The notes beneath the pieces were generated by a model. That model saw nothing but the letters and a program-made list of their open reading frames with translations. It searched no databases and was not told the origin of the DNA. Position numbers and translations under genes: made by a program. A stretch of DNA of 42,987 nucleotides from Candidatus Atribacteria bacterium (GTDB taxonomy: Bacteria; Atribacterota; Phoenicimicrobiia; Phoenicimicrobiales; Phoenicimicrobiaceae), in NCBI GenBank assembly GCA_011056645.1, contig DSEL01000181.1:1-42987 (forward strand). Direction: 5' to 3'. This document shows positions 28,816 to 42,873 of the stretch, one piece after another. Each line of letters opens with the position of its first letter. Position 1 is the stretch's first letter.

Positions 28816-29913
28816 TCATTTTTTAATCTCTTCATAAGGGATAACATGCAAACTTTTTTCCTTTAATTTTACAGATACTTCCTCTCCTATAGAAAATATT
28901 TTATGCTCCTGAGGATTAGCAATCTCTACGGTGAGGAGATTTTTTTCAGTTTTAATTTCGTATACCATCCTAGAACCAAGATAAATCACCTGACTGATTA
29001 TACCATTAATAGCCTCTGGTTTCTTAGGTTCGAGTTCAGTAGATTCAGGCCTGATAACCAGAAAAATTCTATCTCCTTCAGTGAAGATCTTCTTAGGTGT
29101 AGACACTTTATACTTTAACCCTTCTATATCAACCTCAATTTCTTTCTGAGATAAAATAGTGGCTACTTTTCCTTCTAAAAAGTTTGCTTTGCCAATAAAA
29201 TCAGCTACAAAATAATTGACCGGGTGAGCATAGATTTCTTGAGGAGTACCTATCTGCTGAATCTTACCTGCATTCATAATAACTACTCGGTCAGAAAGAG
29301 TCACCGCCTCTTCCTGATCATGAGTAACATACACCGAAGTTATGCCAACTCTCTGCTGTATTTTTCTAATCTCTAATCGGGTAGATACTCGCATCTTGGC
29401 ATCAAGATTGGAAAGAGGCTCATCAAGTAATAATACTTTAGGTTCCATAATTAAAGAGCGGGCTAAACTAACCCGTTGCTGCTGACCTCCAGAAAGCTGC
29501 GAAGGCGACCTGTCACCTAATTCTTTCAAACCTACCAGATTCATGATCTTCTCTGTTCTTTCTCGAATAGCCTTTTCTTTCTCTTGATGAATCTTTAATC
29601 CGTAGGCAATATTTTGATATACGGTCATGTGCGGAAATAGAGCATAATTTTGAAACACCATCGTAGTGGGTCGTCGATTTGGAGGAGTGGTAGTAACATC
29701 TTCTCCGTCAATAAATATTTTCCCGGAAGTGGGAAGTTCAAAGCCAGATATCATACGAAGAGCAGTAGTCTTCCCGCACCCAGAAGGTCCTAAAAGAGTA
29801 ACTAACTCTCCTTTTTTTACTTCTAAATTGACTTTATCTACCGCTGTAACACTTTTTTTCCCACTTCCAAAAATTTTCTCTAAATTTTCAAGAACAAGAT
29901 AATCCTGTTTCAT
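28816..29913 (-). CDS. ABC transporter ATP-binding protein (FbpC/AfuC/PotA type)
   Basis: 365-residue importer ATPase. Walker A GPSGCGKTT at residues 42-50, Q-loop in VFQNYALFPHMTV, signature LSGGQQQRVSLARSL, Walker B LLLDEPLSNLD and switch histidine in YVTHDQEEA. Residues from about 240 form a TOBE domain (AHPVNYFVADFIGKANFLEG). It is the last gene of the binding protein-permease-ATPase operon, 28 nt after the permease. The CUT1-like/ferric/polyamine/phosphonate ATPases are hard to separate by sequence alone; substrate identity must come from the binding protein. Confidence 0.93.
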   Translation of the reverse strand: MKQDYLVLENLEKIFGSGKKSVTAVDKVNLEVKKGELVTLLGPSGCGKTTALRMISGFELPTSGKIFIDGEDVTTTPPNRRPTTMVFQNYALFPHMTVYQNIAYGLKIHQEKEKAIRERTEKIMNLVGLKELGDRSPSQLSGGQQQRVSLARSLIMEPKVLLLDEPLSNLDAKMRVSTRLEIRKIQQRVGITSVYVTHDQEEAVTLSDRVVIMNAGKIQQIGTPQEIYAHPVNYFVADFIGKANFLEGKVATILSQKEIEVDIEGLKYKVSTPKKIFTEGDRIFLVIRPESTELEPKKPEAINGIISQVIYLGSRMVYEIKTEKNLLTVEIANPQEHKIFSIGEEVSVKLKEKSLHVIPYEEIKK

Positions 29914-29941
29914 AAAAAAATCCTTTCCTTTTTCTTAATAA

Positions 29942-31651
29942 TTAGCCAACAATGTCAATAGTTCTTACGCCTTTTCCAATACGATTGACAATTAACTGGA
30001 TAATCCCTAAGGCAATTAAAACAATAACAATCAACAAATTGCACATCGCTGCTGCTTGTGCATACCTGCTATTATCTACAAAACCCAGTATAGCTATGGT
30101 AATTAAATTCCATTTACCCGATACGACAAAAATTACCGCACTGATAGCCGTCATAGCTTTTACAAAATTATAGGCAAGACCGGAGAAAAAAGCGGGGGCA
30201 ATCATCGGTAAAGTAATCCTGCGAAAAGTAGTATTACTATCTGCACCCAGATCAGTTGAGGCTTCCTCGATAGAAGGGTCAATTTGCTGCAGAGCAGCAA
30301 TTCCAGAGCGTATCCCTACCGGCATATTTCTAAATACCAAAAGAATGATGATAATCCAAGCTGTTCCGGTCATGATAAAAGGAAACAGTACAGTTCTTTG
30401 GTTAAATGCCAAGATATACCCTATGCCAACTACCGTCCCGGGAACCGCAAAAGTAAGCATGGAGATAAATTCCATTACCCCCCGGCCAATAAATTTTTTC
30501 CTTATCACCAGAAAAGAGATAAAAATGCCTATAATACCCGCTATTGGTGTAGCCACAGATGAAAGAACTAAGGAATCAATTAAATAATCTTTGCCCACTT
30601 GAAACATTTCTACATAATGTTTTAGAGTTAAGGTGGAGTTAACTCCCCAGAGAGTCTGAAAAGAACCATGAACGATGGTTCCGTAAAAAAGAAACACCAG
30701 TCCGGTAAAAATAATACAACAGGTATAGACCGGTAGTTTTATATACCATTCCAACTGTTTAATGGTGGCACCGGTAGGTTTTCCGGTAACTGTAATATAA
30801 GATTTTCGAGAAACCCAGTATTTTTGCAGAAAAAAAGCAACTATGGTAGGGATGAATAAAAGTATGGCCAGAGTAGAACCCCGAGACAAATCGTACATTC
30901 CGGTAATTTGCAAAAAAGCTTGAACTGAAAGAACTCGATAATTTCCGGAGATAACCATAGGATTTCCGAAATCAGCTAAAGATTGGATAAATACCAAAAG
31001 CCAGGCACTAGCAATGCCTGGTGTAGCTAAAGGTAAAGTAATAGTAGAGAACACTTTTGCCCTTGAAGCTCCCAAATCCATAGAAGCCTCTTCTAATGAT
31101 GGGTCAATAGCTTGAAGAATACCGTAAAGAACCAAAAAAGCTGTCGGGGCATAAGCGATAGTTTCAACCAGTATCAATCCTCCCAACCCATATATGGTAT
31201 AGTTTCCAATAATTTTAGTTAAAAGGGGATTTAGATTCCCCGCTCTCCCAAAGAGCAGAATGGCTGATAGTGCCACTACAAAGGGAGGAGAAATAATGGG
31301 AAAGGTTGCAGTCATCCGAAAAAAATTTTTAAAGGGCATCGGAGTCCTGGTAAGGGCATAAGAAAAGATAAATCCAATTACAGTACCTATGGTTGCAGTG
31401 TACACTCCTAAAAGCATACTATTTAAAAAGGGTTGATAATAATATCTTTTGGAAAAAATTGCGAAATAGTTGGAAAGATTCCATTGTTTATCAATAAATA
31501 AGCTCGTTTTAAAGACTTGAAATATCGGAAATACTACAAAGACTATCAGGCAATAAAAAATCGCCAGAATAGATACAAATAGCAACGGTTCTTTCCATAT
31601 TAAGCGTAGATTTCCGGTGACTTCCTGTATTTTTCTCTTTGAGCTACTCAT
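29942..31651 (-). CDS. ABC transporter permease, fused double domain
   Basis: 569-residue permease in which two BPD_transp_1 units are joined, the FbpB/AfuB/PhnU-like layout. About 12 membrane helices are visible. EAA loops occur in both halves: EEASMDLGASRAKVFSTITL and EEASTDLGADSNTTFRRITL, each ending in the IxLPLxxP-type coupling segment that contacts the ATPase. The RBS is modest (GGGCGG). It follows the binding-protein gene after a strong intercistronic hairpin at 31689-31733, which would lower permease relative to binding-protein levels. Confidence 0.92.
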   Translation of the reverse strand: MSSSKRKIQEVTGNLRLIWKEPLLFVSILAIFYCLIVFVVFPIFQVFKTSLFIDKQWNLSNYFAIFSKRYYYQPFLNSMLLGVYTATIGTVIGFIFSYALTRTPMPFKNFFRMTATFPIISPPFVVALSAILLFGRAGNLNPLLTKIIGNYTIYGLGGLILVETIAYAPTAFLVLYGILQAIDPSLEEASMDLGASRAKVFSTITLPLATPGIASAWLLVFIQSLADFGNPMVISGNYRVLSVQAFLQITGMYDLSRGSTLAILLFIPTIVAFFLQKYWVSRKSYITVTGKPTGATIKQLEWYIKLPVYTCCIIFTGLVFLFYGTIVHGSFQTLWGVNSTLTLKHYVEMFQVGKDYLIDSLVLSSVATPIAGIIGIFISFLVIRKKFIGRGVMEFISMLTFAVPGTVVGIGYILAFNQRTVLFPFIMTGTAWIIIILLVFRNMPVGIRSGIAALQQIDPSIEEASTDLGADSNTTFRRITLPMIAPAFFSGLAYNFVKAMTAISAVIFVVSGKWNLITIAILGFVDNSRYAQAAAMCNLLIVIVLIALGIIQLIVNRIGKGVRTIDIVG

Positions 31652-31688
31652 ATTTTCCGCCCTATAATAATATTTATGGCAATAATAT

Positions 31689-31733
31689 AATAATCCCTGC
31701 TACTACAATAATTAGCCAGTAACAGGGATTATT
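31689..31733 (-). terminator. Intercistronic stem-loop between binding protein and permease
   Basis: A 16-bp stem (31689-31704 with 31718-31733; all positions pair, one as G-U) and a 13-nt loop lie about 30 nt after the binding-protein stop. No U tract follows on the minus strand, so it is more likely an mRNA-stabilising or attenuating hairpin than a full terminator. This arrangement is known in sugar ABC operons to favour binding-protein production. Confidence 0.65.
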
Positions 31734-31764
31734 TTTCCTCTATTACTTCATTGCTCTACTTTGA

Positions 31765-32769
31765 TTATTTTCCTATTCTATCTCTCCAAGCAGTAACCAA
31801 TTCATCTTTGTGCTCGCCTGCCCAGATTGCGTCATAGTCGATTAATTTTACTTTATCTAAAGTTACTGAACCTTCGGCAACTGTTGCTTTCGGATTTACC
31901 GGTAAACGGTTATATTTCTGGAATAAATCCTGGGCTTTTTTGGTAAAACACCAGTCAATAAATTGCTTTGCTAATTCCGGTTCCGGTCCGCCTTTAATTA
32001 AAGATAATCCTCCTACTTCATAACCAGTTCCTTCTAAGGGGAAGGTCATAACCACTGGATATCCTTCATTTACACCTTTGGCGAGGATATCGTGGGAGAA
32101 AGCAATACCAACTGCTATTTCACCTAATCCTACCATCGGTATACATCCGGTTCCGGATTTTGTATACTGAAAAATACTTTGCTTATCAAATTCTTCCCAC
32201 CAATTCAGGGCTTTTTCCAGACCAACCATTTGGACCAGAGTTGCATAAGTAGTGTAGGAAGTACCAGAAGTATAGGGATAAGCTATCGCAACGTTTTGTT
32301 TGAAAGCTGGGTTTAAAAGATGAGACCAGGAAGTCGGTGCTTCTACATTATGTTCCTTTAAAAAATTCACATTAGATACAAAGCCGATTGCCCCGGTGTA
32401 AAATCCGGTCCAAGCCCAATCCTTTGCATGTAAAATATCTTTTAATTCAAAATCGGTATTAGGTTTATACGGTTCAAGTAATCCTTTAGATGCTGCATTT
32501 ATATGAGAGGTATTGGAACCTGCATGCCACATGCTTGCTTGAGGATTAGCCGCTTCTGCTTCTATTCGGGCTAATACTTCACCGGAAGACATTCTCACCC
32601 ATTCTACATCAATTCCCGTTTCTTTCTCAAAAGCCTCAATGTAATACTGAGCTTCTTCGGTATCAAATGCTGTATACATATGAAGCACCTTGCCTGCTGC
32701 CAGACCTGTTACTAAAATACTGCACAACATAACAATAACCATTAATAATGTAAAAGTTAATTTTTTCAT
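31765..32769 (-). CDS. ABC transporter substrate-binding protein (AfuA/FbpA-like)
   Basis: 334-residue periplasmic binding protein of the type 2 (cluster D) fold. Signal peptide at residues 1-25, ending TGLAAG. Family blocks are LHMYTAFDTEEAQYYIEAFE, SLIKGGPEPELAKQFIDWC and KKAQDLFQKYNRLPVNP. The paired iron-binding tyrosines of true ferric binding proteins are not evident at the expected C-terminal half position. AfuA homologues of this group bind hexose phosphates, and others bind 2-aminoethylphosphonate or thiamine. Because HAD phosphatase, PFK and Gnd genes lie next door, a sugar-phosphate ligand is my preferred inference. RBS AGGAGG is strong. Confidence 0.88.
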   Translation of the reverse strand: MKKLTFTLLMVIVMLCSILVTGLAAGKVLHMYTAFDTEEAQYYIEAFEKETGIDVEWVRMSSGEVLARIEAEAANPQASMWHAGSNTSHINAASKGLLEPYKPNTDFELKDILHAKDWAWTGFYTGAIGFVSNVNFLKEHNVEAPTSWSHLLNPAFKQNVAIAYPYTSGTSYTTYATLVQMVGLEKALNWWEEFDKQSIFQYTKSGTGCIPMVGLGEIAVGIAFSHDILAKGVNEGYPVVMTFPLEGTGYEVGGLSLIKGGPEPELAKQFIDWCFTKKAQDLFQKYNRLPVNPKATVAEGSVTLDKVKLIDYDAIWAGEHKDELVTAWRDRIGK

Positions 32770-32925: not shown

Positions 32926-33969
32926 TTATAATATTAGCAGTCTGCCTTGGGGATTAAATTTTCTATATAAGGTTTTTCTTATCTCTTGTCTTTCTCTGTA
33001 AGACCTTTGGTGATCATAACCATTTTTCTGCCATGGCGGAGAAGTAAAGAGTCCTTGATTAAATACCTGTAAAAGCCAATCTTCATATTCACCTTTATAT
33101 TTTCTTTTAATAAATCTTTGAAATGCTCCGGGGAAATCATGCCATGCTTTCTGTTCTTGACCTGGAGGCGTAGGATAAAAAAGCCCGTTATTTGCTTTAA
33201 CTGCTTTTAAATCGCCTCCACCATCACCAATCATCATCACCTGATCATCTTCATACTTGCCTGCTTTTTTGGCAATCTCAATATGATGCTGTTTTGACCC
33301 CATTTCCTGACCAGCAATAATCTGAGCGTATTGAGCAATCCCTTGAGCTTCCCAATAGTTTGCTAAATCTGAGTATGGTGTTTTAGAAACAATTAATATA
33401 TCAGCAGATTGAGTAATTAATTCTAAACATTCTTTTACTTGATTAAAAGGCGGCATCTTTGCAGAAATATAGGGAAATGTTCTGTTAACTGCTTCACTCC
33501 ATCCTAAAAGTTTATATAAAGCAAAATTTTTGGGATTTTTATGGATAAATCCTTCCAAACTTGGATTCCCCAAACCTAATTTATTTTCCTTGGTATAAGC
33601 GATATATTCATTCAGGGATTTTATATCGGGTAGCTTGACATGCCTTTCCTGTACCACTCGCTGAACATCTGCTCTATTTTGAAGAGCGGTAAGGATAAGT
33701 TGAATGGCAATAAATCTATTACACCCTCTATCTATAGAAAAAAGATTATAATATTCGGCAATTTCCCGGAAGTAAGATTCAATCTCCCATAATTGGTAAA
33801 ATTCCATAAATTGAGGGTGAAAAATTAACATCTGTTTTCCATTCATATTGTCGGTAACACAACCGTCGGTATCGATAGCAACCAAAAAATCTTTTGTTCT
33901 TTTAAATTTTCTTAATTGTTGTTCCGCGTCTTCCTTTATCTGTTCTTCGGTAAGCCTGGGTAAAGCCAT
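32926..33969 (-). CDS. HAD-superfamily hydrolase, large-cap type
   Basis: 347-residue HAD protein. Motif I is VAIDTDGCVTDNM (two Asp), motif II VSKTPYSD, the lysine is probably in GSKQHHIEIAKK, and motif IV MMIGDGGGDLKAVK. A long helical cap of about 150 residues separates motifs I and II, and the C-terminal 60 residues are basic and aromatic. It is likely a phosphatase for a small phosphorylated metabolite. It lies downstream of the PPi-PFK gene (gap about 120 nt holding a heptamer hairpin) and upstream of the ABC operon. If the transporter brings in a sugar phosphate, this enzyme could remove the phosphate inside the cell. Confidence 0.82.
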   Translation of the reverse strand: MALPRLTEEQIKEDAEQQLRKFKRTKDFLVAIDTDGCVTDNMNGKQMLIFHPQFMEFYQLWEIESYFREIAEYYNLFSIDRGCNRFIAIQLILTALQNRADVQRVVQERHVKLPDIKSLNEYIAYTKENKLGLGNPSLEGFIHKNPKNFALYKLLGWSEAVNRTFPYISAKMPPFNQVKECLELITQSADILIVSKTPYSDLANYWEAQGIAQYAQIIAGQEMGSKQHHIEIAKKAGKYEDDQVMMIGDGGGDLKAVKANNGLFYPTPPGQEQKAWHDFPGAFQRFIKRKYKGEYEDWLLQVFNQGLFTSPPWQKNGYDHQRSYRERQEIRKTLYRKFNPQGRLLIL

Positions 33970-33991: not shown

Positions 33992-34099
33992 AAGTAATAA
34001 GTAATATGTAATTAGTAATAAAACTATAGTTCTGGATTTATAGAAACAGGTTACTTGTTACTGGTTACTAGTTACTGATTACTTATTACTTATTACTTC
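33992..34099. repeat. Inverted pair of heptamer arrays (empty hairpin element)
   Basis: The right part (34051-34099) is seven tandem 7-mers of pattern TTACTNN: TTACTTG, TTACTGG, TTACTAG, TTACTGA, TTACTTA, TTACTTA, TTACTTC. The left part (33992-34021) is an inverted copy; its reverse complement matches 34069-34098 at 26 of 30 positions. The unit lies between pfp and the HAD gene, and the pfp stop codon is inside the array. Confidence 0.8.
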
Positions 34100-35409
34100 T
34101 TTCTATCCTCTACTGGTACATATTCTTCGCATTTCTTCGTAATATATATCTCTTTAAATTTTGCAAATCGAGGTAAGGGTTCACCGATTAAAGGTAAAGC
34201 CCAATTTATAAATTCATCGGTTACGTCTACCCTATTGGAGCAAATCCATTTTTTGGGAAATTCCCTTTCTGAATTTGCCACGATATCTAATGGTATTTTA
34301 CCATAATTTACCTTATAAGGTAAATTAGGATTTCTTATAATTGTGGACATAAAAGCATTTTCTCCTGATAAGGCAATTTTAACGGCATATGCCCCCACCT
34401 GATAAGCCTCATTTCTATCAACGTTGGATACATAGGCAATCTCTCTCCTTTGGCGGGTACCTGGCCTTTCTGAGCGAGCTATTCCTCTAATTATCAACCG
34501 ACTTTGTGCTCTTCCCTGAGCATCTTTCCTATCGATTCCATTAAGGTAATTAGTAACTACCTGTTCTACTGTCCTTTCAGAAGCACTAAATTGAGCATGG
34601 CCAAAGTTATCCCGGAGTATTCCCAAATCACCTACTTCTACTCCCTCCCCAATCACTACTATACACCTTCTATATTTACTTAATTTTTCATTTACCCTTT
34701 CAGTTAACAACTCTAAATTACCCTGATAATCATCTTTAGATAGAGATTCTGGAAGAATGATTAGTAAAGGCATATCTCTTTTGGGATCAGCGAGTCTTGC
34801 CGCCGCCGGGATAAAACCTATCTTTCTTCCCATGACTCCGATTATCAAAACCGGATCGCTGGTATAGCTAGCCTTGTTCTCCTCATTTGCTTCCAATATA
34901 TTAATAGCTAAATTACGGGCAACGCTTCCATATCCGGGATCGTGATCACATATTGCAAATGTTCCATCATCTTGCAATGGACCTCCTACGTCGTTATCAA
35001 TAGTTTTAGGTACGCCGGTACAAATCAACGCTAAATTTTCTTTTTGGGCTAATTTGCTTACTTTGTTAGCTGTATCCATGGAGTCTCCGCCTCCACAGTA
35101 GAAGAAATATCCAACATCGTGCCTCTTAAAAACCTCAATAATACGTTCCAGATCCTCATCATTTTTTATTTTGTACCTACAACTGCCTATTGTTCCTGCA
35201 GATGCAGTTTCTGCTAATAGAGCTATTTGATGTGGTTCCTGAGCAGAAATATCTATTAATTCTTCTTTTAGAACCCCAAGAATACCCATCTTTGAACCAT
35301 ATATTTTATCAACTTTTTTAGAAGAAATTAATTGGTCAATCACTCCCCTAATACTATTATTAATCACCGAGGTTGGACCGCCTGATTGGGCAATAATTAC
35401 GTTCTTCAT
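34093..35409 (-). CDS. pfp: PPi-type 6-phosphofructokinase
   Basis: 438-residue phosphofructokinase family member. Two residues that set phosphoryl donor point to pyrophosphate: D109 in CGGGDSMDT (where ATP enzymes have Gly) and K135 in GVPKTIDND (where ATP enzymes have Gly). The position before D109, usually Asp or Asn, is Gly here, which is unusual. MGRKIGFIPAAARLAD and the C-terminal substrate loop are normal. The reversible PPi enzyme works in glycolysis and gluconeogenesis and can also phosphorylate sedoheptulose 7-phosphate in anaerobes lacking transaldolase. That would fit a pentose-phosphate role beside gnd. RBS AAAGGAG. Confidence 0.9.
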   Translation of the reverse strand: MKNVIIAQSGGPTSVINNSIRGVIDQLISSKKVDKIYGSKMGILGVLKEELIDISAQEPHQIALLAETASAGTIGSCRYKIKNDEDLERIIEVFKRHDVGYFFYCGGGDSMDTANKVSKLAQKENLALICTGVPKTIDNDVGGPLQDDGTFAICDHDPGYGSVARNLAINILEANEENKASYTSDPVLIIGVMGRKIGFIPAAARLADPKRDMPLLIILPESLSKDDYQGNLELLTERVNEKLSKYRRCIVVIGEGVEVGDLGILRDNFGHAQFSASERTVEQVVTNYLNGIDRKDAQGRAQSRLIIRGIARSERPGTRQRREIAYVSNVDRNEAYQVGAYAVKIALSGENAFMSTIIRNPNLPYKVNYGKIPLDIVANSEREFPKKWICSNRVDVTDEFINWALPLIGEPLPRFAKFKEIYITKKCEEYVPVEDRKK

Positions 35410-35493: not shown

Positions 35494-36771
35494 CTATTTT
35501 ATTTTGTAAAGATACTTCCCGCCATTTTCAATCCATAGTTTCCCTGGTCCGATGAAATCTTTCTGATGAATTGAATCCGGATTCCGATAACCCAACCCTA
35601 CTGATTCACAAATTTCTTTCGAAATTCCAGTAGCTAAAGTAACTTTAAAGTCAAAATCTTCTTTTCCGGAATTAATATCATATTTTCCTGTCCCCCTTAC
35701 ATTAATCACGTGAGCAGCTATATTTTTACTAAATTTAGGATTTATTTCTGTATATTTCTTTACATAATCTTTGCAATGATAACCTATTTGCCTTAAGGCA
35801 AGATCCATCTTTGATCGGGAATGAAAGCACTTGATATGAGGAGCATAAATAATAATTTCTCCACCTGGAGCCATAACTCCGGGACTCTGCAATTTATAAG
35901 AACCTTTCCCGGCAGTCCAAATTTCATCATAACTCTGGTCAATAACCTGAACTGCACAATCAAGGGGCTCATCTATATAAATCACATGAATTTTCGAACT
36001 TAATTTTGCCGCTTGTTTATAAGTTTCGATAAAGCCATTAAATCCTACATCTACATATAAACCTTTGGGTATTACTTGGTGCCCTTTTTCTTGAAAGACC
36101 ATATTAAAAGAAATAACGGGAGCCTTTATCCGGTCAAAAATATAAGAAGCTCCCTGTTTTATCACTTCTCGAGCAGGATTATCTACTGTGCCGATAATTC
36201 GAGGAATACCGATAAGAACCGCTGCCCAGTGCAGTAAATCTATCACCTCCGGACCAGAACTACCCGGGAAAAACACCTTTAATCCTCCCGCATAACCGGC
36301 GGATTCATGAGGTAATGTTCCACTTAAGGCAATAATCAGATCATAATCTTCGGTAATTAACTTATTTACCACTATCGTTATAGACTGAGAAAGATCTCCT
36401 TGAGTTTTCTCAGCGACAAAAGAAGCAGGGATTTCCCCCATGTTTATTAGTTTTTGAGGGTTATTATATTCATGATTATAAAAATGGTTAAAATTAATTT
36501 CAGAAGAGAGCCCCAACTTTTCCCGAATTTCTATTTCAGTCATCGCTCTATGAGTTCCACCGGCGTTTAAAGAATCAATTTTACTCATTCCTTTATTTTT
36601 TAACTCTTCATAGATAAAAGGAACTAATTTATCGGTAAAGTCTGTTCTGGTATAATCAGGATGGATTAATAGAACTTTTTTTACCGAATAAAAATCTTTC
36701 AGACCTTCCTTTACAATTTCTTCTAATTGTTCATCCGTCAATTCTCCATTGAGATCCTCAATTGAAAGCAC
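35494..36771 (-). CDS. LarA-superfamily nickel-pincer racemase/epimerase
   Basis: 425-residue DUF2088/LarA homologue. LarA carries a covalent nickel-pincer nucleotide and shuttles hydride at a 2-hydroxy acid. Here H155, K165 and H181 (PHESAGYAGGLKVFFPG then LLHWAAV) keep exactly the spacing of LarA H174, K184 and H200, and D39/R42 (PDYTRTD) and H74 (GGTHR) match other active-site positions. So an active pincer enzyme is expected. Homologues include lactate and malate racemases and a D-gluconate 2-epimerase. Between gnd and pfp and downstream of the uronate genes, a sugar-acid substrate is the best inference. The start is GTG with GGGAGG. LarB, LarC and LarE are not in the window. Confidence 0.88.
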   Translation of the reverse strand: MLSIEDLNGELTDEQLEEIVKEGLKDFYSVKKVLLIHPDYTRTDFTDKLVPFIYEELKNKGMSKIDSLNAGGTHRAMTEIEIREKLGLSSEINFNHFYNHEYNNPQKLINMGEIPASFVAEKTQGDLSQSITIVVNKLITEDYDLIIALSGTLPHESAGYAGGLKVFFPGSSGPEVIDLLHWAAVLIGIPRIIGTVDNPAREVIKQGASYIFDRIKAPVISFNMVFQEKGHQVIPKGLYVDVGFNGFIETYKQAAKLSSKIHVIYIDEPLDCAVQVIDQSYDEIWTAGKGSYKLQSPGVMAPGGEIIIYAPHIKCFHSRSKMDLALRQIGYHCKDYVKKYTEINPKFSKNIAAHVINVRGTGKYDINSGKEDFDFKVTLATGISKEICESVGLGYRNPDSIHQKDFIGPGKLWIENGGKYLYKIK

Positions 36772-36786
36772 ATTAATCCTCCCTCT

Positions 36787-36825
36787 TTAGATATAGTGAT
36801 AAGTGATAAGTGACGAGTAATAAGA
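36787..36825. repeat. Heptamer array, left side of four-helix-bundle gene
   Basis: Units GTGATAA, GTGATAA, GTGACGA, GTAATAA follow each other at 7-nt spacing. This is the inverted orientation relative to the array at 37117-37163. It encodes the last residues of the four-helix-bundle protein. Confidence 0.6.
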
Positions 36826-37104
36826 AAAAAAGAAAAAACTGTATTTAAAATTATTTAAATATTCTAACCCGTTTGCAATAATAATTTGCGTTTCAAGTTC
36901 AGATAATGATCCTAGGGCTATGTATAAAAATTGAATAAATTCTTTTTTAGAACTTCTTGCCGCACCTTCAGCAATATTTGAAGGAACAGAAACCGCTGCT
37001 CTTCTTATTTGGTTTGTTAAACCATACAGTTCTTTGTTGGGAAAAGACTCAGTAATTCTGTAAATATTACTGACCAAATCCATACTTTTTTTCCAAACTT
37101 CCAA
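36787..37104 (-). CDS. Four-helix-bundle protein (23S rRNA intervening-sequence protein family)
   Basis: About 105 residues of the S23/four-helix-bundle family (PF05635 type). The core VWKKSMDLVSNIYRIT, FPNKELYGLTNQIRRAAVSV and PSNIAEGAARSSKKEFIQFL is well kept. No ATG precedes the conserved start: the frame runs from an upstream TGA through NHKDLEVWKK, so the initiator is probably TTG at 37104 and the natural start may be lost. The C-terminal stretch after NFKYSF (SYYSSLITYHYI) is encoded by a heptamer array. No 23S rRNA, reverse transcriptase or variable repeat is nearby, so its role is unknown. Confidence 0.75.
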   Translation of the reverse strand: MEVWKKSMDLVSNIYRITESFPNKELYGLTNQIRRAAVSVPSNIAEGAARSSKKEFIQFLYIALGSLSELETQIIIANGLEYLNNFKYSFFFFSYYSSLITYHYI

Positions 37105-37116
37105 ATCTTTGTGATT

Positions 37117-37163
37117 TCTTACTTCTTTACTTATTATTCCTCACTCATTACTCATTACTCATT
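37117..37163. repeat. Heptamer array, right side of four-helix-bundle gene
   Basis: Includes TTACTTC, TTTACTTATTATTCC and three clean units of TCACTCAT/TTACTCA type (about 37140-37161). The gnd stop codon TGA (37159-37161) lies in the last unit. With the left array it forms a degenerate inverted repeat around the four-helix-bundle gene. Confidence 0.6.
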
Positions 37164-38649
37164 TTGTCCATTCCTTCTCCGGGCGTTCGCGTTCCATCCA
37201 TTCTGTATGAAATTCTCTCATTTTTCCTTCCTGCGTAGTCATGACTTCCGGATCATCTAATCCTTTAATTTTAAAATAACCATGAGCTCCAAAATAATCT
37301 CTTTGTAAGGCTGATACTTGAGCAGATACCATAATTGGGCTGGTTAGCTGAAGAACATAATCAAAAGCATTATTCATCGCCGGAGCAGGTACTTTTACCC
37401 AATGAGCAATTTCTATAAAATTAGCTAATTTATTAAGACTTTGCTTAACTACCAAGGCGAATCGAGGAGCAGTTAAAAGGCTAGGTATTTCCGGATTCTC
37501 TTGATAAGCTTTGGTAACTTCATCTAAAAACTGAGCTCGAATTATACAACCGCTTCGCCACCCTTTAACAATTTCTCCTAGATTAAGCTCCCATTCATAT
37601 TTTTTAGAAGCAGCCTGTAATAAAGCCATACCTTGAGCATAAGAAGAAATTTTAGCCAGATATAGGGCATCATGAGCGATTTTAATAAATTGCTCTTTTT
37701 CTCCTACATATTTTTCTTTAGAAATAGATATCTCTTTGGAAACTTGTATCCTTAAATCTTTGTCTTGAGACATCTCTCGAGAGAAAACCGCCGCAGTAAT
37801 AGTGGGAATGGGGACTAATAATTCCAAAGCGCTTTGTACTGTCCAGGTACCTGTTCCTTTCATCCTGGTAATATCAGCTGTTCGATCAACTAGATATTCA
37901 CTGCTCTTTTTATCTTTCTCTTTCATGCTTTCTCCGGTAATTTCTATCAAATACGATCGTAAAACATCCTCTTCTTTGTTCCACTCAGCTATAATATGAG
38001 CGATTTCTAATGAACTCATATTTAAAGCATTTTTAAACACCCAGACACATTCACCGATTAATTGCATATCTCCATATTCAATACCATTATGGACCATTTT
38101 CACAAAATGACCTGCTCCATCAGGTCCTATATAGGATACACAGGGAACACCATCATAAGCCTTAGCAGCAATTTTCTTGAATAGGTCTTTAACCAAGGAG
38201 TAGGCTTCTTTCTGTCCGCCAGGCATGATAGCCGGTCCTTTTAATGCTCCTTCTTCTCCCCCGGAAATACCTGTACCGATAAATAATAATCCTAGATCAT
38301 TTAATTCTTTATTGCGCCTTATTGTATCTTTAAAATAAGAATTTCCGGCATCAATGATTAGGTCTCCTTTATCCAGTAAAGGAACGAGTTTTAATATAAA
38401 ATCATCAACCGGTTTTCCCTGCTTTACCAGCAAGATTATCTTACGAGGGGATTCTAAGGAATCTACAAATTCCTCTAAAGAATAAGCTGGAAATATATTT
38501 TTCCCCCGGGCTGCTCCTCTAGCAAAATCTTCTGCTTTGGCACTGGTTCTATTATATACAGCTACAGAATAACCCTTATCCTCCATATTTAAAATTAAAT
38601 TTTGTCCCATTACTCCTAAGCCGATCAATCCGATATCTTTCTTTTTCAT
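37159..38649 (-). CDS. gnd: 6-phosphogluconate dehydrogenase, decarboxylating
   Basis: 496-residue 6-phosphogluconate dehydrogenase giving ribulose 5-phosphate, CO2 and NAD(P)H. The N-terminal nucleotide motif is IGLGVMGQNLILNM; the next acidic/basic region is VYNRTSAKAEDF, the segment that sets NADP against NAD preference. The catalytic motif GTGISGGEEGALKGPAIMPGG is split here only by length, and the catalytic lysine is in HFVKMVHNGIEYGDMQLI. MKGTGTWTVQSALEL binds substrate. It lies within the uronate region, followed by the four-helix-bundle and LarA-like genes. No 6-phosphogluconolactonase, G6P dehydrogenase or gluconate kinase is visible in the window. RBS AAAAAGGAG. Confidence 0.95.
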   Translation of the reverse strand: MKKKDIGLIGLGVMGQNLILNMEDKGYSVAVYNRTSAKAEDFARGAARGKNIFPAYSLEEFVDSLESPRKIILLVKQGKPVDDFILKLVPLLDKGDLIIDAGNSYFKDTIRRNKELNDLGLLFIGTGISGGEEGALKGPAIMPGGQKEAYSLVKDLFKKIAAKAYDGVPCVSYIGPDGAGHFVKMVHNGIEYGDMQLIGECVWVFKNALNMSSLEIAHIIAEWNKEEDVLRSYLIEITGESMKEKDKKSSEYLVDRTADITRMKGTGTWTVQSALELLVPIPTITAAVFSREMSQDKDLRIQVSKEISISKEKYVGEKEQFIKIAHDALYLAKISSYAQGMALLQAASKKYEWELNLGEIVKGWRSGCIIRAQFLDEVTKAYQENPEIPSLLTAPRFALVVKQSLNKLANFIEIAHWVKVPAPAMNNAFDYVLQLTSPIMVSAQVSALQRDYFGAHGYFKIKGLDDPEVMTTQEGKMREFHTEWMERERPEKEWTK

Positions 38650-38914: not shown

Positions 38915-39739
38915 TTATACTCCCGAGAAAGCACTAAACCCTCCATCGACAGGAACAACGATTCCGGTGACAAATTTTGCGGCATCAGAAGCCAGCCAAA
39001 TGCAGGCACCGATTAAATCTTCAGGATCTCCAAAATTACCCATCGGAGTGTGGGCAATAACCAATTGTCCTCTTGGTGTTAAGTCACCTTTTTCAGTGGT
39101 AAGTAGATATCGGTTTTGGGTAGTTAAGAAGAACCCCGGAGCCAGTGCGTTCACTCGTAATTTTTTATTATATTCTTGAGCAAAATGTACGGCCAACCAC
39201 TGGGTAAAATTGCTTACCGCTGCCTTGGCGGCAGAATAACCAGATACCTTGGTAAGAGGACGATAAGCACTCATAGAAGAAATGTTTATGATAGAACCAC
39301 CTTCTGTGTTTTTTATCATATCCTTTCCAAAAATTTGAGAAGGAAGCATAGCACCTCCAAAAAGATTAAGTCCCACTACTTTTTCTAAAGCGGAAAGTGG
39401 TAAATCAAAAAATTTTAGATCCTCCGAGGTGGTAGCTTCTTTCATATTCCCCCCTGCCGCATTAATCAAGATATCTATTTTACTAAAATTTTCAATTAAT
39501 TCATCCCGACAGATTTTAATCTTTTTAATATCCATCACATCTAGATAATAACCTTTAGCTTCTATCCCTTCTGATTTTAATTCTTGGGCAACTTTATCAG
39601 CATTTACAATATCACATATGGCTATCCTGGCGCCTGCTTTGCCTAACCCTCGGGCAATAGCAGAACCTAAAATTCCTCCGCCTCCGGTAATCGCTACATT
39701 CTTCCCTTCTAAACTAAACATTTGTAAATTTTCCTTCAT
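38915..39739 (-). CDS. uxuB: SDR-type D-mannonate oxidoreductase (fructuronate reductase)
   Basis: 274-residue short-chain dehydrogenase. The nucleotide-binding motif is TGGGGILGSAIARGLG; N of INAAGGN; catalytic Ser, Tyr and Lys in ISSMSAYRPLTKVSGYSAAKAA. The end DGGFSAFSGV resembles the YjmF-type enzymes that reduce D-fructuronate to D-mannonate in bacteria lacking the long-chain UxuB. The position immediately after uxaC and uxaE strengthens this reading. The symbol is functional rather than based on homology to E. coli UxuB. RBS GGAGGG. Its stop codon abuts a heptamer array. Confidence 0.82.
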   Translation of the reverse strand: MKENLQMFSLEGKNVAITGGGGILGSAIARGLGKAGARIAICDIVNADKVAQELKSEGIEAKGYYLDVMDIKKIKICRDELIENFSKIDILINAAGGNMKEATTSEDLKFFDLPLSALEKVVGLNLFGGAMLPSQIFGKDMIKNTEGGSIINISSMSAYRPLTKVSGYSAAKAAVSNFTQWLAVHFAQEYNKKLRVNALAPGFFLTTQNRYLLTTEKGDLTPRGQLVIAHTPMGNFGDPEDLIGACIWLASDAAKFVTGIVVPVDGGFSAFSGV

Positions 39740-39923: not shown

Positions 39924-41423
39924 TTATATACTAACTAAAAGTACCAAATGTCTCCTGATATGATTAGAAAGTTCCCTATAATGCTCTTCTTCGTAATCAA
40001 ATAATACTTTATAGATTCTATCTTTATAAATATATTTTCCTCTATCGTCCTTATCCTTGAGAATAGATCCATAAGTTATGTGAATAAGTTGTCGAGAGTC
40101 ATTCTGTTTAAAAAGACTTGCCAATTCATTATCAGAAACTTCATCTAAATTGGGTATACGGGATAGGTCAGTGGTTAAATTGTATGATGCTCTATCTTTT
40201 TCAAAATTCTCCAAAGCAAATCGATGAATTTCCCGATAAAGAGCCGGGTTTTTCATAGCAATAACTTTTACTTCCTCTAACCAGCTAGTCCCGGCAGTTT
40301 TAATATGACAAAAGCTATCGGTCTCCCGAGAAAAAATAGGATAAACAGAAAACTTATCACTCCCGGTGTGAAGGGAAAGTTTATAGCCACCAATACTTTT
40401 ACTTAAAGCTGCGTGCAGAGAAAATTCCCTGGCAAATTCCTCTACATTTCCTATATACTCTATCCCTTTTTGCCAATCTCCTAAGAAATGAAGGGCTAAA
40501 TTCTGAAAATCTACTCCTCTTCTATGAAGTTCTAAGACAATAAATAGATGAGCCAGAGGAGAAGTAACTGTAGGGGTTTCATCTACAGATATTTCTAAAT
40601 CAAATTTTTCCTTTTTGTAACCTGTTAAGAATTCATAACATCTCAACACGTGATTTAGCGCTTCAGAATAAGTAATTATAATTTCTTTTAATGATTGGTC
40701 GTCAAAAATTAATTCTTTCCCATTAACCTTATATGATTTACCTAAATACAATTTTTTTATTTCCTTACAATTAGGAATTTGATTATAAAGTTGGTCTAAT
40801 TCTTGCTTACCTAACTTTTCAATATCATTTCTGATAAAATCGGAAGGGTCTACGGTGAACATTGTAAAGCCACAATCTACCGCTTCTTTCAGCTCTTTAA
40901 TATTTTTTACATGATCGGCATCCGCCCCAAAAGGACCTTCATATCCCGCTTCAAAACAACCCCAAATCGCATCATCTAAAACTTTCTGCCAATTTCTCTC
41001 GGTTCGAGCCATCTCTCTAACCGATTGCTGGGCTAAAATCGGAAAAATATCTTTACCCAGAAAAGCCTGAAGATGGGCTGGAGTAGCTATACCCAATCGA
41101 TCTCCAGTGCCAAAAGAAGCCCTTATACCACAAAAAGAAGGATTTAGGTGCGGGAATATTTCTCGTAATAGAGAAAGATTAAGATGGTTTAAATAACATT
41201 TCTTTATAGCCAATTTATTTTCATCCGCTATCTTCTCTTCTAAATTCTCCCCTTCAAATTTATTAGTAAGATCAGGAGCTGCAAAAATTATCAAATTTTT
41301 TTCTTTATCACCTTTCGCCATAAAAAAATAATTATCTTTTTCTGACATTATAGAAGATGAATATGCCTTATATCTATCACTATGATACTTATCAAAATAC
41401 TGTAAAATATCCTGTTTATTCAT
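39924..41423 (-). CDS. uxaE: Tagaturonate epimerase
   Basis: 499-residue member of the UxaE family, which interconverts D-tagaturonate and D-fructuronate at C4 and so merges galacturonate with glucuronate catabolism. The signature SFGTGDRLGIATPAHL is clear, and FGADADHVK, LEISVDETPTVTSPLAH, LHTGSDKFSVYPIF and HIKTAGTSWLEE match the rest of the family, including metal-binding His and Glu candidates. Its ATG lies 8 nt inside uxaC, indicating translational coupling, with GGGAGAG as ribosome site. With the SDR gene downstream, both hexuronates can be reduced to mannonate. Confidence 0.9.
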   Translation of the reverse strand: MNKQDILQYFDKYHSDRYKAYSSSIMSEKDNYFFMAKGDKEKNLIIFAAPDLTNKFEGENLEEKIADENKLAIKKCYLNHLNLSLLREIFPHLNPSFCGIRASFGTGDRLGIATPAHLQAFLGKDIFPILAQQSVREMARTERNWQKVLDDAIWGCFEAGYEGPFGADADHVKNIKELKEAVDCGFTMFTVDPSDFIRNDIEKLGKQELDQLYNQIPNCKEIKKLYLGKSYKVNGKELIFDDQSLKEIIITYSEALNHVLRCYEFLTGYKKEKFDLEISVDETPTVTSPLAHLFIVLELHRRGVDFQNLALHFLGDWQKGIEYIGNVEEFAREFSLHAALSKSIGGYKLSLHTGSDKFSVYPIFSRETDSFCHIKTAGTSWLEEVKVIAMKNPALYREIHRFALENFEKDRASYNLTTDLSRIPNLDEVSDNELASLFKQNDSRQLIHITYGSILKDKDDRGKYIYKDRIYKVLFDYEEEHYRELSNHIRRHLVLLVSI

Positions 41424-42873
41424 TAAACTCTCCCTTTAAATTAAATAACCTCATTTGATTTTCATACATCAAAGCTTTCAACGCTTTCACTCCCCCATTA
41501 TAGGTTATTTGCCCACTCGAAACAAGGGAACCTATGACTTTACTTATTATTCTGTCAAATACTTCAAATCTACTCCCCTCTGACAAAATTTTTCTGCCAT
41601 CACAAACTGGGCCCCCGCTTGAGGTAAGAAGAGACGATCCAGCAGTATGTAGCAGATATTGTTCCATCACATAAGGACTATCATTATGCCACCAGGGAAA
41701 TCCAGAGTGAACCTTAGGAAAAGCCCTTTCTAACATCAAATTAGTATGAGCAAAAATTTGATTCATGGGATATAAAATTAAATGACCTTGATTCTCGCTT
41801 TCTCCGCTAAAAAATCTTGATAATAGAGGTTGTAAATTCTCTATGATATTTACGTTGTCAGCTGAAACATCACCTCCTACATCAGTTCCCCATTTTTCAA
41901 ATAAATACTCGTTAGCATTTCTGACCGCACCATAATGTATCTGCGTAACCATTCCTTTTTCTTGATTCAAAGCACAGAATTGGTGCATCATAAAGGAAAT
42001 AAATTCTTTTGTTTCAAGAGATCTCAGACCAAACTTCTTTCCCTTATTATAAGCTTGCTGAAAAATTTCTTCCGCTCTTTTCAAACTGATTTTTAAACCA
42101 TAGGGCTCCAACAAGCCATGATCACTTGCCCTTGCCCCTCTCTCTGCAAAATAAGCATACCTCATACTTAAAGCCTCCATAAGACCTTTAAGTGTTGTTT
42201 CACGTTTAGTTAATTGGCAGATTTTTTCCACATTTGCTTTCCACTGATCATCAAAGATATTACAATAAGCATCAGGCCTAAAGGTAGGTAAAAAAGTAAT
42301 ACCTTCTATGTTTCTGGACACCTTATGATATTCCAGATCATCTATCGGATCATCGATTGTAAAAATAATTTTTGCTCCGATTTTCTTCAGGATAGATTGT
42401 GGTAACATATCTTTTTTCTGTAAGCGATCATTCGCTTTTTCCCATACTCTATCTGCGGTCTCAACGGATAATATTTCTTCTATGCCGAACATTCTTTTCA
42501 AATCTAAATGCATCCACTGATGGACATGGTTTCCCTCAAGATAAGGAAAAACTCCGCACAAGGCCTTCCATTTATCATAATCTGAAATTTGAGGATCTCT
42601 AGCCAAAGCCTGGGAAAAACCAGGGAATTTTGCAGCCAATTGAATAATATAATGATCACAGTTTTTATATTCTCCCCTTGTCTCAAGAACTTCAGCTCTC
42701 CAAATATTGGGAAAAGGTTTATTTTCCACAATTTGCCTTAGATTATGATGAGTATGAGTATCAAAAATCCCCACCTCTTTTCTTAAGGGAACTGCAACTT
42801 CATGGTATAATTTTACACCTTCAGTTGTATCCAATAACCAATCTTTACCTAAAAATTTATCTTTTGTCTTCAT
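41416..42873 (-). CDS. uxaC: Glucuronate/galacturonate isomerase
   Basis: 485-residue uronate isomerase of the amidohydrolase superfamily. It converts D-glucuronate to D-fructuronate and D-galacturonate to D-tagaturonate. The metal site starts at FDTHTHHNL; ITFLPTFRPD, MVTQIHYGAVRN, FPKVHSGFPWWHNDSPYVMEQYL and TSSGGPVCDGRK are family blocks. The start ATG has the strong site AAAGGAGG. It is the first complete gene of the uronate operon in this window. Its promoter cannot be read because the sequence folds back into an exact reverse complement only 52 nt upstream. Confidence 0.93.
   Translation of the reverse strand: MKTKDKFLGKDWLLDTTEGVKLYHEVAVPLRKEVGIFDTHTHHNLRQIVENKPFPNIWRAEVLETRGEYKNCDHYIIQLAAKFPGFSQALARDPQISDYDKWKALCGVFPYLEGNHVHQWMHLDLKRMFGIEEILSVETADRVWEKANDRLQKKDMLPQSILKKIGAKIIFTIDDPIDDLEYHKVSRNIEGITFLPTFRPDAYCNIFDDQWKANVEKICQLTKRETTLKGLMEALSMRYAYFAERGARASDHGLLEPYGLKISLKRAEEIFQQAYNKGKKFGLRSLETKEFISFMMHQFCALNQEKGMVTQIHYGAVRNANEYLFEKWGTDVGGDVSADNVNIIENLQPLLSRFFSGESENQGHLILYPMNQIFAHTNLMLERAFPKVHSGFPWWHNDSPYVMEQYLLHTAGSSLLTSSGGPVCDGRKILSEGSRFEVFDRIISKVIGSLVSSGQITYNGGVKALKALMYENQMRLFNLKGEFNE

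Follow-up and report, generated by a model that had tools for sequence, protein, structure and literature searches.

A putative nickel-pincer D-gluconate/D-mannonate 2-epimerase encoded in a uronate pathway locus of an Atribacterota bacterium

A gene for a LarA-like protein lies among genes for sugar acid metabolism on a contig of an uncultured Atribacterota bacterium (GCA_011056645.1, contig DSEL01000181.1), which raises the question of what reaction a relative of lactate racemase would catalyze there. The window is the whole stretch of DNA analyzed, 42,987 nucleotides. The initial annotation had presented a pincer enzyme with sugar acid neighbours as a puzzle, but the orthologue in Thermotoga maritima has been assayed as a D-gluconate 2-epimerase and belongs to the same pathway cluster. 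The gene, here called gntE, is as follows:

35494..36771, minus strand, gntE, 425 aa, predicted nickel-pincer nucleotide (NPN)-dependent D-gluconate/D-mannonate 2-epimerase of the LarAH20 (GntE2) group

From sequence comparison we consider GntE very probably to be the Atribacterota orthologue of T. maritima GntE2, acting on D-mannonate/D-gluconate and joining uronate to the oxidative pentose-phosphate branch. The lines of support are homology, conserved residues, tree placement, operon content, the cofactor-synthesis genes and the lack of a detectable mannonate dehydratase.

The reading frame opens with a GTG start codon just 3' of a strong GGGAGG ribosome-binding site, and its product matched the Pfam Lar_N model at 73 bits (cut-off 23.3). 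Membership in the LarA superfamily is true homology and not a chance match. Residues D39, R42, H74, H155, K165 and H181 were all found at the positions given in the initial annotation, and the H-K-H spacing of 10 and 16 residues is that of LarA H174/K184/H200, as it had stated. The spacing from R42 to H74 is 32 residues compared to 33 in LarA, near but not identical. The ligand set had been called complete on six residues; all six are there, although the list left out K289 (in TAGKGSYK), which is also present as the equivalent of LarA K298 and is the last catalytic residue. The catalytic D72, H108, H174 and K298 of LarA thus correspond to D39, H74, H155 and K289 of GntE. The catalytic and cofactor residues were invariant across 15 aligned relatives from Atribacterota, one Aerophobetes genome, Thermotogota, Actinomycetota and Acidobacteriota.

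The purified, NPN-loaded GntE2 (PDB 4NAR) interconverts D-mannonate and D-gluconate, with a kcat of 197/s and a KM of 17 mM on D-mannonate (PMC7583248). GntE is 53% identical to this protein over 425 columns, its full length. In a phmmer search of the PDB with GntE as the query, 4nar was recovered at E = 8e-152 while the next LarA structures reached 31 bits or less, those of lactate and malate racemases covering only part of GntE. The AlphaFold model of GntE (pLDDT 87) gave 4NAR as its top match with a TM score of 0.90, and other LarA structures scored about 0.7 or less. The NPN-binding residues R41/K164/H180 of GntE2 are R42/K165/H181 in GntE, and D38/H73/H154/K287 are D39/H74/H155/K289. Substrate selection is presumed to lie with the two residues after the catalytic His, the residue before the catalytic Lys and a residue of helix 14 (PMC7583248); E155-S156, G286 and N348 of GntE2 are matched here by E156-S157, G288 and N350, whereas the first two regions read F-F and V in lactate racemases and Y-K and Q in Mar2. 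A maximum likelihood tree, the check which the initial annotation had proposed, placed GntE and GntE2 in one 14-row clade (support 100/99), with all lactate and malate enzymes across a 100/100 branch. Neither outcome which the initial annotation had named as speaking against it was thus seen, as GntE did not join the lactate or malate racemases and the residues that line its pocket are those of GntE2, which takes a six-carbon acid. GntE scored 197 bits on NF052594, under the 500-bit cut-off of this model, which is the only NCBIfam model for a hexonate epimerase and was built on group 18.

Read along the minus strand from the right end of the window, the gene order is uxaC, uxaE, uxaD, gnd, the gene of a four-helix protein and gntE:

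41416..42873, minus strand, uxaC, uronate isomerase (PF02614 313 bits; NF002794 342 bits, below its cut-off of 387)
39924..41423, minus strand, uxaE, tagaturonate-fructuronate epimerase (PF16257 603 bits)
38915..39739, minus strand, uxaD-like, SDR fructuronate reductase (D-mannonate oxidoreductase) (NF006132 350 bits, cut-off 281)
37159..38649, minus strand, gnd, decarboxylating 6-phosphogluconate dehydrogenase (TIGR00873 581 bits, cut-off 427)
36787..37104, minus strand, four-helix-bundle protein of the 23S-rRNA-intervening-sequence type, between gnd and gntE (PF05635 129 bits)

This order is kept in relatives, and uxaE, uxaD, gnd and gntE occur together in the window as they do in the T. maritima-type galacturonate operon, where the regulon reads gnd-uxaR-uxaE-uxaD-gntE-gntK (PMC3750489). 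The four-helix-bundle protein is probably a passenger; homologues were found at the same spot in three loci (L028, L033, L075) and not in most other relatives. Its place in the gnd/gntE gap, together with an ABC transporter of the 2-aminoethylphosphonate type downstream, means that the earlier statement, which assigned every neighbour to sugar acids or sugar phosphates, was too broad. The transporter (28816-32769, minus strand) was 2-aminoethylphosphonate-like, with scores under the curated cut-offs. In several Atribacterota it comes after the HAD gene described below, and it may carry a sugar acid or a phosphonate. As a separate observation, the long Gnd is replaced in several Thermotogota (L107, L110, L111, L112) by a short NAD-type 6-phosphogluconate dehydrogenase adjoining gntE (gnd_rel in L110-L112).

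We infer the reaction, direction and flux of GntE, and by analogy to LarA its mechanism, as follows. Galacturonate or glucuronate would pass through UxaC, UxaE and UxaD to D-mannonate, the substrate of GntE. The nickel-pincer nucleotide would be held by K165, H181 and R42, and either H74 or H155 would take the proton of the C2 hydroxyl of D-mannonate as the C2 hydride moves to the cofactor. Return of the hydride to the opposite face of the resulting 2-keto intermediate would yield D-gluconate, which on conversion to 6-phosphogluconate would be taken by Gnd to ribulose-5-phosphate. UxaD yields D-mannonate and Gnd starts from 6-phosphogluconate, so the missing isomerization is exactly that of GntE2. 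The mannonate dehydratase UxuA was not detected in the host genome (a draft, 96.6%-complete), while the same search found it in 5 of 14 control genomes, T. maritima included. With no detectable UxuA, mannonate probably leaves mainly through GntE.

The KM of 17 mM is high, and for that reason the true substrate of the whole GntE2 group, GntE with it, could be a different pair of C2 epimers in the uronate pathway, either hexonates or aldarates. The authors of the assay suspected other isomers for group 19 (PMC7583248), and promiscuity is possible among LarA enzymes. We consider this unlikely, as UxaD and Gnd bracket a single reaction and no UxuA was found in the genome. A lactate or malate racemase that came to lie in a uronate cluster by chance would have the fold, the cofactor site and the H-K-H spacing in common with GntE, but is very improbable given an identity of about 20%, the E-S loop in place of F-F or Y-K and the 100/100 split in the tree. 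GntE scored 63 bits on the lactate racemase model NF033504 (cut-off 460) and 67 bits on the malate racemase model NF052593 (cut-off 500), and a separate protein of the same genome (L001) does pass the malate racemase cut-off. We rejected this assignment on tree, residues and profile scores together. That GntE is an inactive or cofactor-free relative is the least credible reading, with every residue intact and invariant in the 15 relatives and with larE, larB and larC in the genome. The best reading of the sequence remains that of the initial annotation, namely an intact nickel-pincer enzyme which would act on a sugar acid and not on lactate.

The larE, larB and larC genes are adjacent on another contig of the same genome (C150), so the nickel-pincer cofactor can be made. 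The genome contains seven Lar_N genes including gntE. The six others (L001-L004, L006, L007) comprise one above the malate racemase cut-off (L001), two above that for group-22 pincer isomerases and three unassigned.

The step from gluconate to 6-phosphogluconate raises a further question, as no gntK encoding an FGGY gluconate kinase adjoins gntE in the window. Two other genes are found there:

34093..35409, minus strand, divergent pyrophosphate-type phosphofructokinase (PFK)-family protein, 438 aa (NF010675 349 bits, cut-off 273)
32926..33969, minus strand, HAD-superfamily protein, 347 aa (weak HAD_2 match; CbbY/beta-PGM-like fold hits from a low-confidence model)

The PFK gene occupies the place of gntK in the T. 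maritima order. An FGGY gluconate kinase adjoins gntE in T. maritima and in a related Thermotogota locus (L041). Two Actinomycetota loci (L039, L040) have a gene of 359 aa between gnd and gntE, a PfkB-family kinase in L039, and in other Atribacterota families, where gntE is 34-37% identical, an FGGY kinase is close by in two of the loci read (L073, L077). In the window's own lineage neither an FGGY nor a PfkB kinase was found beside gntE. The PFK and HAD pair follows gntE in Atribacterota, in one Aerophobetes genome and in 8 of the 9 Thermotogota genomes which have this PFK clade; one Thermotogota locus (L107) has a stop inside the PFK frame. An apparent in-frame GntE-PFK fusion of 836 aa (L037, 1959-4469) was discarded as an artefact, since its junction falls on a stretch of N in the assembly.

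The PFK clade (13 rows) was separated from ordinary pyrophosphate PFKs by a 100/100 branch, and its members scored 768-888 bits compared to 277 or less for the ordinary enzymes. The clade contains the D104/K124 pair, which we take to be the mark of pyrophosphate use in the PFK family. The host genome has three further genes of the PFK family; judged by overall match to the Pfam model, two of these are ATP-like or nearly so. In the sugar-phosphate site the position of E. coli R162 is P, not R or K, and the residues at positions 243 and 249 shift with the alignment used. Since only the R162 position is robust, and P is also found there in another PFK paralogue (L081), a lost sugar-phosphate site is a weak case.

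The HAD gene is co-inherited with this type of gntE. Among 50 Atribacterota genomes 12 had both genes, two had gntE only, one had the HAD gene only and 35 had neither (Fisher p = 9e-9, and 5e-4 in the two closest families, both uncorrected for kinship). The structure model of the HAD protein had a mean pLDDT of 62, and its hits confirm a HAD fold and no more.

Most simply, it would be the PFK protein that serves as the gluconate kinase of the locus, and we regard it as a candidate for this function. We tentatively propose, as a possibility rather than an expectation, that the gluconate formed by GntE is phosphorylated by the pyrophosphate-type PFK-family member in place of an FGGY or PfkB kinase, with the co-inherited HAD protein assisting; this would apply to these Atribacterota, the Aerophobetes genome and some of the Thermotogota. 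A fair rival is that the PFK protein acts in ordinary pentose-phosphate rearrangement, on sedoheptulose-7-phosphate. Neither TIGR01313 nor the FGGY gntK model passed its cut-off in the host genome. We do not read this as a genome with no gluconate kinase, as FGGY kinases adjoining gnd/gntE in other genomes also score low on the FGGY gntK model, at only 276-372 bits. A distant FGGY kinase encoded elsewhere could therefore phosphorylate gluconate here. Away from the locus the host genome has eight complete FGGY genes, whose identity to the kinases found in the slot is about 30% or lower. A search of the PMC literature returned no report of a pyrophosphate-dependent gluconate kinase in the PFK family; if true, the proposal would give the PFK family a new function and make the uronate pathway pyrophosphate-driven. 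The conserved gntE-PFK-HAD trio poses the specific question of which enzyme phosphorylates gluconate in these organisms.

With a close characterized relative in T. maritima and the expected sugar acid setting, GntE itself is largely ordinary. An epimerase of this kind had already been characterized in T. maritima, and it is the host phylum, Atribacterota, that is new. If the assignment holds, a gene of uncultured Atribacterota would nevertheless gain a definite reaction, and these bacteria would need nickel and the pincer cofactor to use pectin and other uronic acids.

Compared to known systems, GntE is closest to T. maritima GntE2 (LarAH20, Q9WYS3), which it resembles in overall identity, in catalytic, cofactor and substrate-region residues and in pathway neighbours. 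It differs in that the Atribacterota gntE has no adjoining gntK or uxaR and is accompanied by the PFK-family and HAD genes instead. The LarAH18/19 enzymes (NF052594; C. glutamicum GntE1) belong to the same superfamily and have an E-x loop, and the 34-37% identical relative also follows gnd in other Atribacterota families; these relatives fall outside the GntE clade, however, and most rows have an E-V loop, with E-I in one. LarA and Mar1/Mar2 have in common with GntE the NPN ligands and the catalytic D/H/H/K set, but differ in their low identity, in other substrate-region residues and in their fully supported separation in the tree.
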